In this document: positions 314 through 11,274 of the stretch, piece after piece
Layout of the letters: each line of letters begins with the position of its first letter
Numbering within the stretch: position 1 is the first letter of the stretch
Assembly: GCA_947447355.1 (NCBI GenBank)
Contig: CANFJF010000012.1
Coordinates: 1 to 64,000, forward strand
DNA: 64,000 nt
Direction of reading: 5' to 3'
Source: Comamonadaceae bacterium
GTDB taxonomy: Bacteria > Pseudomonadota > Gammaproteobacteria > Burkholderiales > Burkholderiaceae_C
Position numbers and translations under genes: made by a program
The notes under the pieces: generated by a model
What the model was told of the DNA's origin: nothing
Seen by the model: the letters and a program-made list of their open reading frames with translations, nothing else
The model's database searches: none

Positions 314-1669
314 TCAGCCCTCTTGGCGTTTGCGCTCAAAGTAGTCGTTGGTGACCTTGCTCACCACCGGCGACAGCAACACCAAAGACACCAAGTTGGG
401 AAAAGCCATGAAGGCATTCAAGGTGTCGGCCAGCAGCCAGACGAAGTCCAAATGCGTGACCGCACCGACCAATACGAACAGCGTCCACAAAGCACGGTAA
501 GGCAGGATGATCTTGCTGCCGAACAGGTAGCCCCAGCATTTTTCACCGTAGTAGGCCCAACCAAGGATGGTGGTGAAAGCGAACACCGTCAGCGCAATCG
601 ACACAAAATACTGGCCAAAGCCCGGCAATGCCGCGCCAAAGGCGCCCGAGCTCAGTGCCGCGCCCGACAGGCCGCTGCTCCAGAGCCCGGTGACGATGAT
701 CACCAGGCCCGTCATCGTACAAACAAGGATGGTGTCGATGAAGGTGCCCATCATGCCGACCAAACCGGACTCAGCCGCGTCCTTGGTTTGGCCGGCAGCC
801 TGTGCAATACCGGCCGTTCCCAGTCCAGCCTCGTTGGAAAAGATACCGCGCGCCACACCGTAACGCATGGCCAGCATGATGGTGGCACCGGTGAAGCCGC
901 CCACCGCCGACAACGGTGTGAATGCATGCGTAAAGATCAGGCCGAAAGCCGCCGGAATCTCATTGGCATACATGCCCAAAACGACCAGTGAGGCCACGAT
1001 GTAACCGATGCACATGGCTGGCACCAGCTTGGCAGCCACCGCTCCAATGCGCTTGACGCCGCCCAGCAACACAAAACCGGTGAGTACCATCAGCACCACA
1101 CCCGAAACCCAGGGTGCAACCCCAAAGCTGGCGTCGAGTGCGGCGGCAATGCTGTTGGACTGCACCATGTTGCCGATGCCAAAACCGGCCAGCCCACCAA
1201 ACAGCGCAAAAGCCACACCGAGCCAAGCCCAACGCTTTCCCAGGCCGTTCTTGATCGCAAACATGGGGCCACCCACATGTTCACCCCGGTCATCGAGCTC
1301 GCGAAAATGCACCGCCAGCAAGACCTCGGCGTACTTGGTGGCCATGCCGACCAGCGCGGTCATCCACATCCAGAACAGTGCACCCGGTCCGCCGATGGCA
1401 ATCGCTGTGGCCACGCCGGCAATGTTGCCGGTACCCACCGTGGCGGCCAAAGCGGTCATCAGCGCAGCATAGGGCGTGATTTCGCCCTTGGCACCAGCCT
1501 CCGCTTGACGGCTTTTCCAGACCATTCGAAAACCCATGAAGATTCGCCGCAGCGGCATCAACCCGAGCCGCACCTGCAAATACAGGCCGGTGCCCAGAAT
1601 CAGCACCAACATCGGGGGGCCCCAGACGAAATTGTTGATAGCCGTGACGATAGAGGTGAGCGTTTCCAT
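314..1669 (-). CDS. Sodium:alanine symporter family (AGCS) transporter
   Basis: Predicted inner-membrane carrier of 451 aa that should import alanine, glycine or a related small amino acid with sodium. The family signature region [20 protein letters not shown] lies near residues 85-105 and [14 protein letters not shown] near residue 280. About ten hydrophobic segments are visible and the length is normal for AGCS proteins. The ATG at 1669 is preceded by an AGCGAGA ribosome-binding sequence. The gene stands alone, runs convergent to nothing in the window and is separated from lpdA by a strong terminator. Substrate specificity cannot be read from the sequence. It is a family assignment, made with high confidence. 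Confidence 0.9.
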
Positions 1670-1694
1670 GATTTCTCGCTAGGTGTGGTTGTGA

Positions 1695-1712
1695 TGGATG
1701 CCAACGCATCCA
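1695..1712 (-). promoter_or_regulatory. Inverted repeat in the symporter leader
   Basis: TGGATGC-CAAC-GCATCCA is a perfect 7-bp inverted repeat centred about 35 bases upstream of the symporter start codon, with a further ATGCAT just beyond it. It could be an operator or an mRNA hairpin near the ribosome-binding site. The AT-rich stretch at 1730-1790 beyond it probably carries the promoter, but no clear -35/-10 pair can be chosen by eye. Confidence 0.35.
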
Positions 1713-1806
1713 AGATATGCATCAATAGAATTCATTTTTTCATTATTTTTTATCGAAAATATATCATCGGAATTATTTTTAAGGTGTACCTACGGCAGCC
1801 ACAATG

Positions 1807-1843
1807 AAAAAAGCCCGAACCCTCTAAAGGGTACGGGCTTTTT
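1807..1843 (-). terminator. Rho-independent terminator after lpdA
   Basis: A 16-base arm AAAAAGCCCGAACCCT pairs with AGGGTACGGGCTTTTT (one mismatch) across a CTAA loop. A T-run follows on both strands, so it is in principle bidirectional. It lies about 20 bases past the lpdA stop codon and ends the leftward pyruvate dehydrogenase operon. Confidence 0.9.
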
Positions 1844-1863
1844 GCCGCCTTGGTGCAGTTAAC

Positions 1864-3723
1864 TTACTTACGCGTAGGCGGCAAATCCGTGCAGCTGCCA
1901 TGCGCCACTTCGGCCGCCATGCCGATGCTTTCCCCCAATGTGGGGTGCGGGTGAATCGTCTTGCCGATGTCGATGGCGTCAGCGCCCATCTCGATCGCCA
2001 AGGCGACTTCACCGATCATGTCGCCGGCATGCGTGCCGACCATGCCGCCACCCAAAATTTTGCCGTGGCCGTGCGCTTCCGGGCTGTCGTCAAACAGCAG
2101 TTTAGTCACGCCTTCGTCGCGGCCGTTGGCAATCGCGCGACCTGAAGCCGTCCACGGGAACAGGCCTTTTTTGACTTTGATGCCTTGCACTTTGGCTTGG
2201 TCTTCGGTCAGGCCAACCCAGGCAATTTCAGGGTCGGTGTAAGCGACGCTTGGAATCACACGAGCGTTGAAGGCGGCACTGGCCAATTCCTTGTTGCCCT
2301 GCAATTCACCGGCGATCACTTCAGCAGCCACATGCGCTTCATGCACAGCCTTGTGCGCCAGCATCGGCTGACCGACGATGTCACCGATGGCAAAGATGTG
2401 GGGCACGTTGGTACGCATCTGAATGTCAACCGGAATGAAACCACGATCGGTGACGCTGACGCCCGCTTTGTCAGCAGAGAGCTTCTTGCCATTCGGCGTG
2501 CGGCCAACCGCTTGCAACACCATGTCGTAGGTTTGCGGCGCTGGAGCGCCCTCGCCTTCAAAGGTGACTTCAATGCCGGCGGGTGTCGCCTTGGCGCCCA
2601 CGGTTTTGGTATTTAGCATGATGTTGTCAAAACGCGGCGCATTCATTTTTTGCCAGATCTTGACCAAGTCGCGATCAGCGCCTTGCATCAGGCCATCCAT
2701 CATTTCGACCACGTCAAGGCGCGCACCGAGGGTGCTGTAAACCGTGCCCATCTCCAGACCGATGATGCCGCCGCCCAAGATGAGCATGCGTTTTGGCACT
2801 TCCTTGAGGTTGAGAGCGCCAGTCGAATCGACCACGCGCGGATCTTCTGGCATGAACGGCAAGCGCACCGCTTGGGAGCCAGCGGCGATGATGCACTTTT
2901 TGAAGGCAATGGTTTGCTTCTTGCCAGTTTGCGCTTGGGCTTCGCCCGAGGTCTCGCTCACTTCAACATGATTCGCACCGACAAAATTGCCGTAACCGCG
3001 CACCACGGTGACCTTGCGCATCTTGGCCATGGCAGCCAGACCGCCGGTCAGCTTGCCGACGACTTTTTCTTTGTGGGTGCGCAGCTTGTTGATGTCGAGC
3101 ACCGGCTCGCCAAAGCTCACACCAAGCGTGTCGAAATGCTTGACTTCGTCCATCACGGCGGCGACGTGCAACAGCGCCTTGGAGGGTATACAGCCGACGT
3201 TCAGGCAAACACCGCCGAGGGTGGCGTAGCGTTCAACCAAGATGACTTTCAAGCCGAGATCCGCCGCGCGGAAAGCTGCCGAATAACCACCGGGGCCAGC
3301 GCCTAGCACCAGCATGTCGCACTCCATGTCGGCGCTGCCGGCGAAGCTGGCAGCGGTAGGTACGGCGACAGTGGCCGCGGCAGGAGCAGCGGCTGGGCCG
3401 GCCGAAGCAGGCGCGCTGTCAGCAGGCGCAGGGGCGGCAACGGCAACCGCCGCAGTGGCCGGAGCCTCAGCGGCTTCGGCGATTTCCAGCATCAGCAGCA
3501 CCGAGCCTTCTTTGACCGCATCACCCAACTTGACTTTGAGCTCCTTGACAAGACCAGCGTGGCTCGATGGAATTTCCATTGAGGCTTTGTCGCTTTCAAC
3601 CGTGATCAGGCTTTGCTCGGCTTTGATGGTGTCGCCGGGCTTCACCAACACTTCAATGATGGTGACTTCTGCAAAGTCGCCGATGTCTGGGACTTTGACT
3701 TCAATCAGATGGGCTTGACTCAT
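1864..3723 (-). CDS. lpdA: Dihydrolipoyl dehydrogenase (E3) with N-terminal lipoyl domain
   Basis: E3 component of pyruvate dehydrogenase, 619 aa; reoxidises dihydrolipoyl groups using FAD and NAD+. Residues 1-80 form a lipoyl domain with the lipoylated lysine K46 in ESDKAS. An Ala/Pro-rich linker (about 85-130) follows, then the flavoprotein with FAD motif GAGPGG at 141-146, redox cysteines C173 and C178 ([13 protein letters not shown]), a second dinucleotide motif GGGIIG, and the catalytic pair H593/E598 in HPHPTLGE near the C-terminus. An E3 carrying its own lipoyl domain is common in betaproteobacteria and Neisseria but absent from the E. coli enzyme. Its ATG overlaps the stop of the proteasome-like gene by four bases (ATGA), so the two are translationally coupled. 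Last gene of the operon. Confidence 0.97.
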
Positions 3724-4310
3724 TGGCTTGCTTTCAACTTGAGGGTGAACACCTCCACCGGTCCGGCGGAGTTTTTGTCAAATTCGATGCCGGCGTGAAT
3801 ACCGGCCAGCGCGATCTCGCGCGCTGTTTTGGCTTTGTCCCAGCTGCTGTGCATGGCACCCAGCGCGAAACTCCGGCCGGAGCCAATACCCCAAAATTCT
3901 TTGAATTCAAAAATTTCACGGTAGCTGTAAAGACCATAAATGCCGGTGGCATTGGCGATGACCACACTGAACTGGCTGGACTCGTAAGGGTCGTTGTCGT
4001 CTTCCTTGGTCTGCAAGAAAAAGTTTTCTTTCAGAACCGGATGTAAACGCGTGAAAGTATCGAACACTTCGTCCTTGCTGCCAAAGCGCAAATGCTCACG
4101 GGGCAAAGCGACCATCGCTTTGCGCAGCACCGGAAAGTGCGCCACCGTTCCCGCCATGCCGATATAGCTACTGCCCGCCGGCGTGTCGATCTTGAAGATC
4201 TTGCCGTTCGACTCGAAGCGACTGCTCAAACGGGTGTCGCCGAAGGTCACCAAGGTGTCGGCGGCGATGGCCACTTGGCCATTTTTTTTCACCACAACCA
4301 GCGTTGTCAT
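3720..4310 (-). CDS. Betaproteobacterial proteasome homologue (BPH-like Ntn-hydrolase)
   Basis: Protein of 196 aa with the proteasome-beta/HslV fold. It begins [18 protein letters not shown], which aligns with the HslV N-terminus; removal of the initiator Met would expose Thr1, with Asp17 in place and a lysine in SNGKIF matching the HslV Lys33 region after a short insertion. The late segment [12 protein letters not shown] followed by [12 protein letters not shown] matches the conserved GSG...AREIA region of HslV. The ATG at 4310 is preferred over an in-frame TTG at 4319 because only the ATG gives the Thr1 N-terminus. It lies 10 bases after the aceF stop and overlaps lpdA by ATGA. No unfoldase gene (hslU-like) is adjacent. 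Betaproteobacteria carry a described proteasome homologue called BPH, a double-ring particle of unclear biological role; this protein fits that family. Membership is inferred from sequence features, not from a search. Confidence 0.85.
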
Positions 4311-4320
4311 GCCGCGCAAC

Positions 4321-5673
4321 TCACAACAGGACGCGACGGAAGTCAGCCAGAATCTGACTCAAATACACATTGAAGCGGGCCGCAGCGGCACCGTCAATGA
4401 CCCGGTGGTCATAGGTCAGACTCATCGGCAGCATCAGGCGCGGCACAAACTGCTTGCCATCCCACACGGGTTCCATCATGCTTTTGGAAACACCCATGAT
4501 GGCGACTTCAGGGGCGTTGATGATCGGCAGAAAATACTTGCCGCCAATCCCGCCGAGGCTGGAGATGGTGAAGGTCGCGCCGGTCATTTCAGCCGAACTC
4601 AATTTACCGTCGCGGGCTTTCTTGGCCAGCTCGCCCATTTCCTGGCTGAGCTGCAAAACGCCTTTTTGGTCGGCGTCACGAATCACCGGCACCATCAAAC
4701 CATTTGGCGTGTCAGCAGCGAAGCCGATGTGCCAGTAGTTTTTATAGATGATGGCATCGCCGTCGAGCGAGCTGTTGAACTCCGGGTATTTTTTGAGTGT
4801 CGCCACGATGGCTTTGATCAAAAAGGCCAGCATGGTGACCTTGACGCCAGACTTTTCGTTCTCTTTGTTGGTCGACACGCGAAAGGCTTCGAGGTCGGTG
4901 ATGTCTGCATCGTCATGGTTGGTGACGGCCGGAATCATGATGGCATTGCGCAGCAAGTTGGCGCCGCTGATCTTCTTGATGCGGCTCATGTCCTTGCGCT
5001 CGATCGGGCCAAACTTAGCGAAGTCGACCTTCGGCCATGGGATCAAGCCCAGAGCTGCGCCGTCACCACCAGATCCGCCTGAACCAGCAGGTGCTTTGAC
5101 AGCCTGTGCTTGAGTGCGCACGTCGCCAGTCATGACGGACTTGGCAAAGCTCTGCACATCTTCTTGAGAGATCCGGCCCTTGGGTCCGCTGCCGTTGACT
5201 TCGGCCAAAGGGACACCGATTTCACGGGCGAATTTACGCACCGATGGAGAGGCATGCGGCAGTTGGCCGGTCATTGCAGTGGGCTCATGCGCGGGCATGG
5301 CCAATGCAGGGGCAGCAGCGGGTGCGCTGGCGACAGCGACAGGCGCAACGACTGCAGCGGCTTGCGCAACAGGCGCAGCCGCCGCCGGCATGGACACAGG
5401 AGCAGCAACAGGCGCCGCAGATGCCGAGGCATCGGCTTCAGCCTCCAGCACCAGCACGATCGAGCCCTGCTTTACCTTGTCGTCGAGTTTGACGCGAAGT
5501 TCTTTGACCACGCCGCCATGGCTCGATGGGATTTCCATCGATGCCTTGTCGGACTCAACGGTCAGAAGTGATTGGTCGGCCTTGACCGTGTCACCCGGTT
5601 TGACCAGGATCTCGATCACTGTCACCTCGTCGAAGTCACCAATATCGGGAACCTGAATGTCTATCAATGCCAT
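4321..5673 (-). CDS. aceF: Dihydrolipoamide acetyltransferase (E2) of pyruvate dehydrogenase
   Basis: Core E2 subunit, 450 aa; transfers the acetyl group from lipoamide to CoA. Domains in order: one lipoyl domain (residues 1-75, lysine K43 in ESDKAS), a long Ala/Pro/Val linker, a peripheral-subunit-binding domain near 145-180 (PSVRKFAREIGV, GPKGRI), and the catalytic acyltransferase domain ending with DHRVIDG, active residues H423 and D427. There is one lipoyl domain against three in E. coli. The ATG at 5673 follows a GGAGA ribosome-binding site. It lies 51 bases after aceE and 10 bases before the proteasome-like gene. Confidence 0.97.
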   Translation of the reverse strand: MALIDIQVPDIGDFDEVTVIEILVKPGDTVKADQSLLTVESDKASMEIPSSHGGVVKELRVKLDDKVKQGSIVLVLEAEADASASAAPVAAPVSMPAAAAPVAQAAAVVAPVAVASAPAAAPALAMPAHEPTAMTGQLPHASPSVRKFAREIGVPLAEVNGSGPKGRISQEDVQSFAKSVMTGDVRTQAQAVKAPAGSGGSGGDGAALGLIPWPKVDFAKFGPIERKDMSRIKKISGANLLRNAIMIPAVTNHDDADITDLEAFRVSTNKENEKSGVKVTMLAFLIKAIVATLKKYPEFNSSLDGDAIIYKNYWHIGFAADTPNGLMVPVIRDADQKGVLQLSQEMGELAKKARDGKLSSAEMTGATFTISSLGGIGGKYFLPIINAPEVAIMGVSKSMMEPVWDGKQFVPRLMLPMSLTYDHRVIDGAAAARFNVYLSQILADFRRVLL

Positions 5674-5724
5674 GTTGTTGTCTCCAGTTCGTCAGTCGCT
5701 TAAGTCGCTCTATGAAGCCGCGGC

Positions 5725-8430
<2,706 letters not shown>

Positions 8431-8520
8431 GTTTGTCTCCTGCTGATTAAAAGTACCGTTTTTTGAGCGGTCTTGGCAGCAGTGCGCGCCATCTACCGCA
8501 TGCACTGCTTCAAGCTTGCC

Positions 8521-8536
8521 TACAAATTAGTTTGTA
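8521..8536. promoter_or_regulatory. Candidate operator, TACAAATTAGTTTGTA
   Basis: Perfect 6-bp inverted repeat TACAAA-TTAG-TTTGTA in the 261-bp space between divergent aceE and the sensor-kinase gene, about 90 bases upstream of aceE. The surrounding sequence (8537-8640) is AT-rich and probably contains both promoters. The site does not match the enterobacterial PdhR box. Its role as an operator is inferred only from symmetry and position. Confidence 0.4.
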
Positions 8537-8691
8537 AACGCTATTTGCACCACTTCTTGAAGTTTCTCATATTTTTTCATAAATTTCAAATTACGCCACA
8601 TCATTTCACATTAAGAAATAAAACATTTTCAGCTAGATGTTGAAATGCCAGAACCTGCCGTCCATCCGCTCCTATAAACTTCGAGCTCTAC

Positions 8692-11274
8692 ATGCCAGCC
8701 AACGAAACAACCACCAACACCAAGCCAAGCGCAGCCACCAGCACACACCCGGGCCGGATGATGTGGTTGCGCAGTTGGTGGAAAAAGCAATCCCCTTCAC
8801 GACAAGACCGCTACATCACGTTGGGGCCTTTGCTCTCAGTGGTTCTTTTTTTGGCTGCTGTGATTGCGGCATTCGGCTATTTACGCATCGAAGAAATTGA
8901 CCGTGAACAAGAAGCGGTTCGACGCGACGTTGAATATGCGCAACAGCGTTTAAGACTTCGGCTGCTTGAGCGCCAAGAGCAGTTGATGCGGCTGGGTCGG
9001 GACGTCTCCAACAAAGAGGTCGACGAAGCCGAATTTGTGTCGCAGGCTGAATCGCTGATCAACCAGTACCCCGAGTTACTGGCGGTGACTTGGGTCGACT
9101 CGCGTCGCCGTGTGCGCGTGGCTTATGTCTCCTCAAGCGCTAACGCAGCGCAATCACGAGCCAATGGCGAGCAACTCAAAAGCGGAGAAACCGATGGCAC
9201 TTACGGACTCGCCCGCGACCTCCGGCAACCGGTCTATTCAAGGCCTCTGACCTCTAGCAATGACAGAGGGACCGTTGCACCGACACTGCAATTGCAATTA
9301 CCGCTCGACGAACAAGGCAAGTTCGACGGCGTCATCTTGGGCGAATTTTCCATCGATGGACTGTTGCGATTTGGCGTTCCCACGGAAGTCAGCGCCAAGT
9401 ACGCGGTGGCACTGATCGATGATCAAGGGCTCGTACTCGCTGGTGGAATGCCACCACCAAGAACCTCTGCTGCACGACTTTTACCATGGACGGATGAGGC
9501 CCCGGTCTACGAAATCCCCGTCTCTCCGGTTGGCAATGGCCTGTTGATCAGAGCCCAGGGATATCGAGCGTCACTGGGCGTGGTGGGCAGCGGATTTTTC
9601 TGGCTTGTTTCTGCGTTGAGCGCCTTGACTGTGTGGATGCTACTGGGTACCTGGCGCCACACGCGACGCCGGGTGCAAGCGCAAGAGGCGCTGATCACTG
9701 AAACCAACTTTCGCCGGGCCATGGAAAACTCCATGTTGACCGGGATGCGTGCCCTCGACCTGGATGGTCGTATCACTTACGTCAACCCGGCCTTTTGTCA
9801 GATGACGGGCTGGAGCGATGACGAACTGGTGGGCCGCGTTGCACCCTTTCCTTACTGGCCGGAACAGGACCGCGAATGGTTGGCTGGCCGACTGGAAGAT
9901 GAGCTCAAGGGTCGATCAGCGCAAGGTGGATTCGAAGTTCGCGTCAAACGCAAGGACGGCCATATTTTTGACGCGAGGATGTATGTCTCGCCATTGATCG
10001 ATCCACGTGGTCAACAAGCCGGCTGGATGACCTCCATGACCGACATCACTGTCTCTAAACGCATTCGGGAGGAGCTTTCCCACTCCTACGAGCGCTTTAC
10101 CACGGTGCTGGAAGGGTTGGACGCAGCCGTCTCAGTGGCACCGCTCGGCTGTGAAGAGCTGCTGTTTGCGAACAAGCTTTATCGCGCTTGGTTTGGCAGC
10201 GAGGTATCTGGTCACATCAACCTGATCGCTCAGGCCGGCATGCCAGTGGTCACGCCAACCGAGGACGCTTCGGATGTGGACGGTTTGGCAGGCCTTCCGA
10301 CTGACGAGCTGACAACTGCGCAATCCGAGAATGCTGAAATTTTTGTGCCCGAACTGGGCAAATGGCTGGAAGTCCGGTCACGCTATTTGACTTGGGTTGA
10401 TGGCAGGCTTGCACAAATGGTGATTGCCACCGACATCACGCCTCGTCGGCAGGCAGAAGAGCAGTCTGCATTACAAGCCGAACGCGCCCAGTCGGCCAGC
10501 CGGCTCATCACCATGGGGGAAATGGCCTCCAGTGTGGCGCATGAATTGAACCAACCCCTGACCGCCATCAACAACTACTGCAACGGCATGGTGTCGCGAA
10601 TCAAAGATAACAACATCAGCACCGAAGACCTGCTGGGCGCACTTGACAAAACAGCGCACCAAGCTCAGCGGGCGGGTCAGATCATTCAGCGCATCCGTTC
10701 GTTTGTGAAACGCAGCGAACCCAATCGCAGCTTGTCCGACGTCGCGACCATGGTGAGCAATGCGCTAGAACTCGCCGAGATCGAGCTGCGCCGGCACCAT
10801 GTTCGGCTGAGCCACTACATCGCGGCGCGACTGCCGCCCATCCTTGTCGATCCGATTCTGATTGAGCAGGTGCTGATCAACCTGATGAAGAATGCAGCAG
10901 AATCCATTGAGCAGGCTAAGCGCCCTAGTTCGGGCCGTAGTGTTGAACTGCGCGTGGTGCCCAAGCAGATTGAGGACATGAGTGTGATCGAATTCTCGAT
11001 CCTTGATTCAGGCAAAGGCCTGTCACAGGAAGTCACGGCCCGACTTTACGAAGCCTTTTACTCGACCAAGGCAGAAGGCATGGGCATTGGCCTGAAACTC
11101 TGCCGCAGTATCGTGGAGTCCCACCAGGGACGAATGCAGGCGGAGAACCTCTACAATGCAGGCGAGGTTGTGGGCTGCCGGTTCACCTTCTGGCTCCCGG
11201 TCAAACCCCTGCTGACAACCGCACCGACGCTTGCAGAGATAGCAAGTGCGAAAAACGGGAAAAGCGCACATTGA
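8692..11274 (+). CDS. PAS-domain sensor histidine kinase
   Basis: Membrane-bound two-component sensor of 860 aa. A hydrophobic segment at about 42-64 and a second near 300-322 (SGFFWLVSALSALTVWMLL) frame a periplasmic domain of roughly 235 aa. Two PAS-like domains follow in the cytoplasm (about 335-455 and 460-580; NSMLTGMRALDLDGRITY begins the first). Then comes a HisKA domain with the phospho-acceptor H617 in SSVAHELNQPL, and a HATPase domain with an N-box (INLMKNAAES), DSGKGLS and MGIGLKLCRSIVESHQG. The HELNQPL H-box places it in the FixL/DctB/TodS-like group. The stop at 11274 is 16 bases before the response regulator, its evident partner. The signal sensed is unknown. Confidence 0.92.
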   Translation: MPANETTTNTKPSAATSTHPGRMMWLRSWWKKQSPSRQDRYITLGPLLSVVLFLAAVIAAFGYLRIEEIDREQEAVRRDVEYAQQRLRLRLLERQEQLMRLGRDVSNKEVDEAEFVSQAESLINQYPELLAVTWVDSRRRVRVAYVSSSANAAQSRANGEQLKSGETDGTYGLARDLRQPVYSRPLTSSNDRGTVAPTLQLQLPLDEQGKFDGVILGEFSIDGLLRFGVPTEVSAKYAVALIDDQGLVLAGGMPPPRTSAARLLPWTDEAPVYEIPVSPVGNGLLIRAQGYRASLGVVGSGFFWLVSALSALTVWMLLGTWRHTRRRVQAQEALITETNFRRAMENSMLTGMRALDLDGRITYVNPAFCQMTGWSDDELVGRVAPFPYWPEQDREWLAGRLEDELKGRSAQGGFEVRVKRKDGHIFDARMYVSPLIDPRGQQAGWMTSMTDITVSKRIREELSHSYERFTTVLEGLDAAVSVAPLGCEELLFANKLYRAWFGSEVSGHINLIAQAGMPVVTPTEDASDVDGLAGLPTDELTTAQSENAEIFVPELGKWLEVRSRYLTWVDGRLAQMVIATDITPRRQAEEQSALQAERAQSASRLITMGEMASSVAHELNQPLTAINNYCNGMVSRIKDNNISTEDLLGALDKTAHQAQRAGQIIQRIRSFVKRSEPNRSLSDVATMVSNALELAEIELRRHHVRLSHYIAARLPPILVDPILIEQVLINLMKNAAESIEQAKRPSSGRSVELRVVPKQIEDMSVIEFSILDSGKGLSQEVTARLYEAFYSTKAEGMGIGLKLCRSIVESHQGRMQAENLYNAGEVVGCRFTFWLPVKPLLTTAPTLAEIASAKNGKSAH

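Follow-up and report, generated by a model that had tools for sequence, protein, structure and literature searches.

The proteasome-like gene lying between aceF and lpdA in the pyruvate dehydrogenase (PDC) operon of this Comamonadaceae bacterium encodes a BPH, and comparison of BPH loci across the family, order and class indicates that its product is probably a context-independent, unfoldase-free protease for which the PDC operon is an expression site. The embedded position itself is already published, having been reported for the BPH of Cupriavidus metallidurans (PMC5777263); the same paper described BPH with argG in Thiobacillus denitrificans and with Hsp33 in Laribacter, and a study of new homologues stated that their genomic context gave no hint of function (PMC8665760). 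Our literature searches returned no link of BPH to PDC or to riboflavin beyond what the text of PMC5777263 contains. BPH is a proteasome relative of solved structure, and its neighbours vary by clade while its catalytic features stay constant. This makes guilt by association a poor argument for a link with pyruvate dehydrogenase, and the PDC position is more likely a place for expression than a sign that BPH serves pyruvate dehydrogenase.

The features of the window, that is, the whole stretch of 64,000 nucleotides that was analysed, are collected in Table 1. The BPH start codon follows the aceF stop codon after a spacer of 10 bases, and the bases ATGA (3723-3720) are common to the BPH stop and the lpdA start, in agreement with the arrangement given in the initial annotation. 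The translation begins Met-Thr-Thr and contains Asp17 and Lys36; removal of the start Met would expose Thr1. An alternative TTG nine bases 5' of the ATG would bury Thr1, and the homologues support the ATG as the probable start. BPH looks like a real, selected gene because of its Pfam Proteasome score (34.1 bits against a cut-off of 22.4), its match to 5OVU, the BPH of C. metallidurans (E 6e-65 over residues 2-194), and its low dN/dS. Among close relatives the median dN/dS was 0.091 for BPH, 0.138 for aceF and 0.087 for lpdA over 234 non-independent pairs (26 of the 81 loci; 234 of 325 pairs retained by a dS filter of 0.1-1.5), and the protein is held under strong purifying selection.

Table 1. 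Positions of BPH, its functional segments and its neighbours in the window
Feature	Position	Strand	Evidence or remark
BPH gene, 196 aa proteasome-like threonine peptidase	3720..4310	-	ORF (ATG at 4310, stop ends at 3720), homology, alignment, dN/dS
Lys36 codon, equivalent of proteasome Lys33	4200..4202	-	Lys in 118/118 order rows
Acidic pore-loop segment, 15 residues	3972..4016	-	Alignment; loop role from PMC5777263
aceF, dihydrolipoyl acetyltransferase (E2), 450 aa, one lipoyl domain found	4321..5673	-	Stop ends at 4321
lpdA, lipoamide dehydrogenase (E3), N-terminal lipoyl domain	1864..3723	-	Start at 3723 overlaps BPH stop
aceE, homodimeric-type pyruvate dehydrogenase E1	5725..8430	-	
PAS histidine kinase, divergent from aceE	8692-11274	+	
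Sodium:alanine symporter, after lpdA	314-1669	-	

The assignment of the protein to the BPH family, proposed in the initial annotation, was borne out by the structure-sequence search. The best Protein Data Bank match was 5OVU, followed by the T. denitrificans BPH 5OVS (E 3e-31); an HslV structure came far behind (E 0.0066), and no Anbu match was obtained at E 0.01. The HslV model TIGR03692 gave 23.7 bits against a cut-off of 157.75, a weak similarity at the N-terminus within a shared fold family, and the archaeal 20S beta-subunit model gave 29.6 bits against a cut-off of 224, so that the window protein lies nearer to the solved BPHs than to HslV or the 20S proteasome. By homology with 5OVU and 5OVS, it would form a double seven-membered ring, a tetradecamer with inward-facing active sites; its AlphaFold model is weak (mean pLDDT 56.6, from a 24-row alignment with relatives 76-96% identical). 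It shares catalytic residues and the acidic pore loop with the C. metallidurans BPH (5OVU, Rmet_1198), but the two come from different organisms, and no HslV match was obtained in the genome of the window. The T. denitrificans BPH (5OVS/5OVT) belongs to the same family and has the same catalytic set; unlike the window gene it lies in an argG operon, and 18 diagnostic positions set the arg-context loci of the order apart from the rest.

The catalytic site is intact, as had been claimed for Thr1, Asp17 and a Lys, and it is conserved across the 118 aligned order rows (the window and 117 order loci). At position 1, 113 rows have Thr and five have Ser; Asp17, Lys36, Gly53, Gly142 and Gly144 are invariant in all 118. 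The window protein combines Thr1, Asp17 and the Lys33 equivalent with the absence of a propeptide, and it carries a long acidic pore loop. Over the aligned 15-residue stretch, at least five Asp/Glu are present in 12 of the 12 PDC rows, and the mean by context group ranges from 5.4 to 6.7, with a lowest single value of 3. In contrast, the long acidic loop was not found in six aligned HslV rows. The catalytic residues are shared, and the acidic loop is similar, in BPHs beside hsp33, hsp15 and arg/yajQ and, outside the order, in those between ribD and ribE. No substrate is known on which BPH is active, which makes it a putative protease in vivo; two BPHs failed to cleave standard peptides and casein (PMC5777263), which would suit a ring-shaped binding or scaffolding protein that is a non-working protease retained for another activity. 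However, Thr or Ser at position 1, Asp17 and Lys36 are retained in every one of the 118 rows, and adducts of BPH with epoxomicin and MG132 have been published (PMC5777263), so we give the scaffolding explanation very little credence.

Within the operon, BPH probably shares both transcript and translation with its PDC neighbours. A separate BPH promoter found no support: over positions 1600-8800, two promoter-like sites were counted, both inside BPH, against a shuffle mean of 2.5, and 11 terminator-like sites against a shuffle mean of 8.8 (sd 2.4), with no excess in either case. In many family relatives the aceF open frame is approximately 550-610 aa long, compared with 450 aa in the window, and these longer genes perhaps contain an extra lipoyl domain.

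Inside the family, the association of BPH with aceF is fixed. A BPH match was found in 76 of 299 family genomes (the window's own included), and in 76 of these 76 it lies just after aceF on the same contig and strand, at a gap of -4 to 258 bases; the count includes two genomes with a broken gene (G565, G395) and three in which it is cut by a contig end (G343, G515, G528). In the named loci (the best 80 of 112 confirmed) plus the window, aceF is upstream in 80/81 and lpdA downstream in 80/81. In the two exceptions (L050, L089) a contig end precedes the gene in question, and the recorded match is a lipoyl cross-match. The aceF match of L051 ends at residue 352. The nearest named relatives among these best 80 of 112 are Polaromonas and other Comamonadaceae. 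In the 30 of 223 BPH-negative family genomes that were checked, aceF was always present, and a lipoyl motif follows it in 28, within 50 bases in 25; therefore, the junction is closed in most of these 30 genomes. Remnants of BPH in place between aceF and lpdA, each in a short open frame, were seen in G565 (L258), where the C-terminal part is left, and in G395 (L298), where an internal deletion has occurred. The lpdA gene that follows the broken BPH in G395 seems to have no lipoyl domain.

Beyond the family, the neighbours change. In the order set (presumably Burkholderiales), BPH matches occurred in 117 of 300 genomes, the window's own among them. When same-strand neighbours within 2.5 kb were used to call the context, the 117 order loci (from 115 other genomes and 27 families, with the fragment G266 left out) fell into HSP33 (44), ARG (41; argG, ppnP-like, argF, yajQ), PDC (11), HSP15 (9) and other (12) contexts, and the 11 PDC loci span six families. 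In the class set, 41 of 321 genomes had a match, and 36 loci were taken from the 40 other matching genomes (G773 and G635 uncounted, G756 and G863 unfetched). Of these loci outside the order, BPH lies downstream of ribD and upstream of ribE in 25 (L302, L304-L327; wider views in L338-L340, L344, L347, L348 and L350); 22 of the 25 also have nrdR, 22 also have ribBA, and all 25 have Ser1. One of the remaining 11 class loci has nrdR upstream, and seven of the 11, at 26-35% identity, may not be BPH proper. The initial annotation would have counted random placement in other genomes as refuting its claim: random placement is not what the survey gave, but attachment to PDC genes holds in one clade only.

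In a 74-row tree of rows sampled by group and rooted on HslV, the 12 PDC rows form one clade (12/12, support 99/98), which groups with the HSP15, HSP33 and other order rows (94/99), and the RIB rows branch outside. A single PDC clade was also recovered in two larger quick trees (96 SH-aLRT). All three trees carry a long-branch warning, and their backbone and root are less sure than the PDC clade. A single derived relocation is the best reading of the PDC position: one lineage would have settled the BPH gene between aceF and lpdA, and the gene was probably inherited vertically in the PDC operon with many losses. We infer repeated loss from the patchy presence and the in-place remnants. Because the PDC association has one origin, it lacks independent repeats. 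No residue is private to the BPHs of the PDC clade (0 of 196 positions), and diagnostic positions elsewhere number 18 in the arg rows, one in the hsp rows and one to nine in each of eight single families.

These results bear directly on the suggestion in the initial annotation that BPH has a dedicated role for pyruvate dehydrogenase. On this view, the BPH of the PDC clade would be a dedicated PDC quality-control protease that removes or trims orphan or oxidized E2/E3, whose flexible Ala/Pro-rich linkers might pass into the barrel unaided by an unfoldase. This explanation is consistent with BPH adjoining aceF in all 76 family genomes with a match, with the retention of the PDC setting in six order families, and with selection on BPH about equal to that on lpdA (0.091 vs 0.087); complete synteny over 76 genomes with no relocation is what a functional link would also give. 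However, BPH pull-downs and co-occurrence speak against it. Pull-downs from extracts of C. metallidurans, where BPH lies in the PDC operon, yielded neither PDC subunits nor HslU, and carbonylation patterns were unaffected by BPH, according to the text of PMC5777263. The PDC position belongs to a single clade, with other operons hosting BPH elsewhere and no residues private to the PDC-linked proteins, and aceF is present in all 30 BPH-negative family genomes checked. In the order, aceF went unmatched at 1e-90 in 17 of 117 BPH-positive genomes, and aceE likewise at 1e-10 in 14 of the 17 (12 of 13 among those of good quality); these genomes may hold another pyruvate dehydrogenase type. Among the 183 order genomes negative for BPH, 144 have aceF. 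Taken as a whole, the BPH family is therefore not confined to genomes or loci with PDC genes, and for the family the co-occurrence and residue results weigh against a role dedicated to PDC. The unbroken synteny within the family leaves room for such a role in the PDC clade, as BPH clades may differ in their substrates and presence without PDC elsewhere is compatible with a PDC role here; we nevertheless regard the quality-control explanation as unlikely.

The other part of our proposal is that BPH works without a cognate unfoldase. No unfoldase is encoded beside BPH, all of its neighbours having been named, and the earlier observation that no hslU-like gene lies nearby is thereby upheld. HslV gave no match in the window's genome (an assembly 93.8% complete) or in two genomes of the same genus, G393 (one contig, 100% complete) and G492. 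No HslU over the cut-off was found in the window's genome, unlike what would be expected beside an HslV; the best hit of the HslU model reached 98.2 bits against 362.45 and is a 434-aa frame for a putative ClpX. Anbu (5LOY, 5NYJ), also of a proteasome-like family, is encoded as a separate gene on another contig of this genome (L002, contig C113; match to 5LOY, E 2.7e-89). Within the limits of the assemblies, these results exclude that BPH depends on HslV; a need for HslU seems unlikely. A candidate ATPase for BPH was not found in the study of PMC5777263 either, as its text reports.

Alternatively, BPH, as an HslV-like protease, might make use of HslU or of a different AAA+ unfoldase present in the cell, for example, ClpX. 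The reported descent of BPH from HslV (PMC5777263) and the place of the putative ClpX at the top of the HslU-model hits would fit with this, as would the positive association of HslV with BPH in the order, where HslV exceeded the cut-off in 106 of 117 BPH-positive vs 121 of 183 BPH-negative genomes; however, shared ancestry and genome size could also produce that association. Family genomes with BPH (40/50) and without it (25/30) have HslV at similar frequencies, in a sample of 50 from the 75 BPH-positive genomes and 30 from the 223 BPH-negative ones. Together with the lack of HslV in the window's genome, G393 and G492, the HslU score below the cut-off in the window's genome and the published pull-down in which HslU was not found (PMC5777263), this makes a borrowed unfoldase very unlikely. 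The family and order counts also give no support to the idea that BPH replaces HslV.

Under the preferred reading, an unfoldase-free protease for which the PDC operon is mere housing for expression, BPH would be a self-compartmentalizing peptidase with an N-terminal threonine and seemingly no cognate unfoldase, whose function appears independent of the host operon. Most likely, its output would be steady, as for a housekeeping protein, and the acidic pore-loop gate would admit chains that are unfolded, damaged or presented in a special way. A more specific possibility is that unfoldase-free BPH, whose gene has settled at the inner junctions of several housekeeping operons (ribD|ribE, hsp33/hsp15, arg/ppnP|yajQ and aceF|lpdA), removes the apo-forms or oxidation-damaged forms of flavin and thiol enzymes during their synthesis; this combined proposal is prompted by the redox and flavin theme shared by riboflavin synthesis, the flavoenzyme E3 and the redox chaperone Hsp33, and we consider it improbable.

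The ribD-BPH-ribE setting, which is absent from the main texts of PMC5777263 and PMC8665760, offers new organisms among the other class members in which to search for substrates. In one class genome (G773, L345), BPH matches extend over three frames between ribD and ribE, resembling a gene decaying in place. Ser1 occurs in five of the 118 order rows, whereas Ser1 was linked to non-Betaproteobacteria in the text of PMC5777263. Finally, two order genomes carry two BPH copies each (G118, L246/L252; G157, L249/L253), with Thr1 in the copy in the argG setting and Ser1 in the copy elsewhere.
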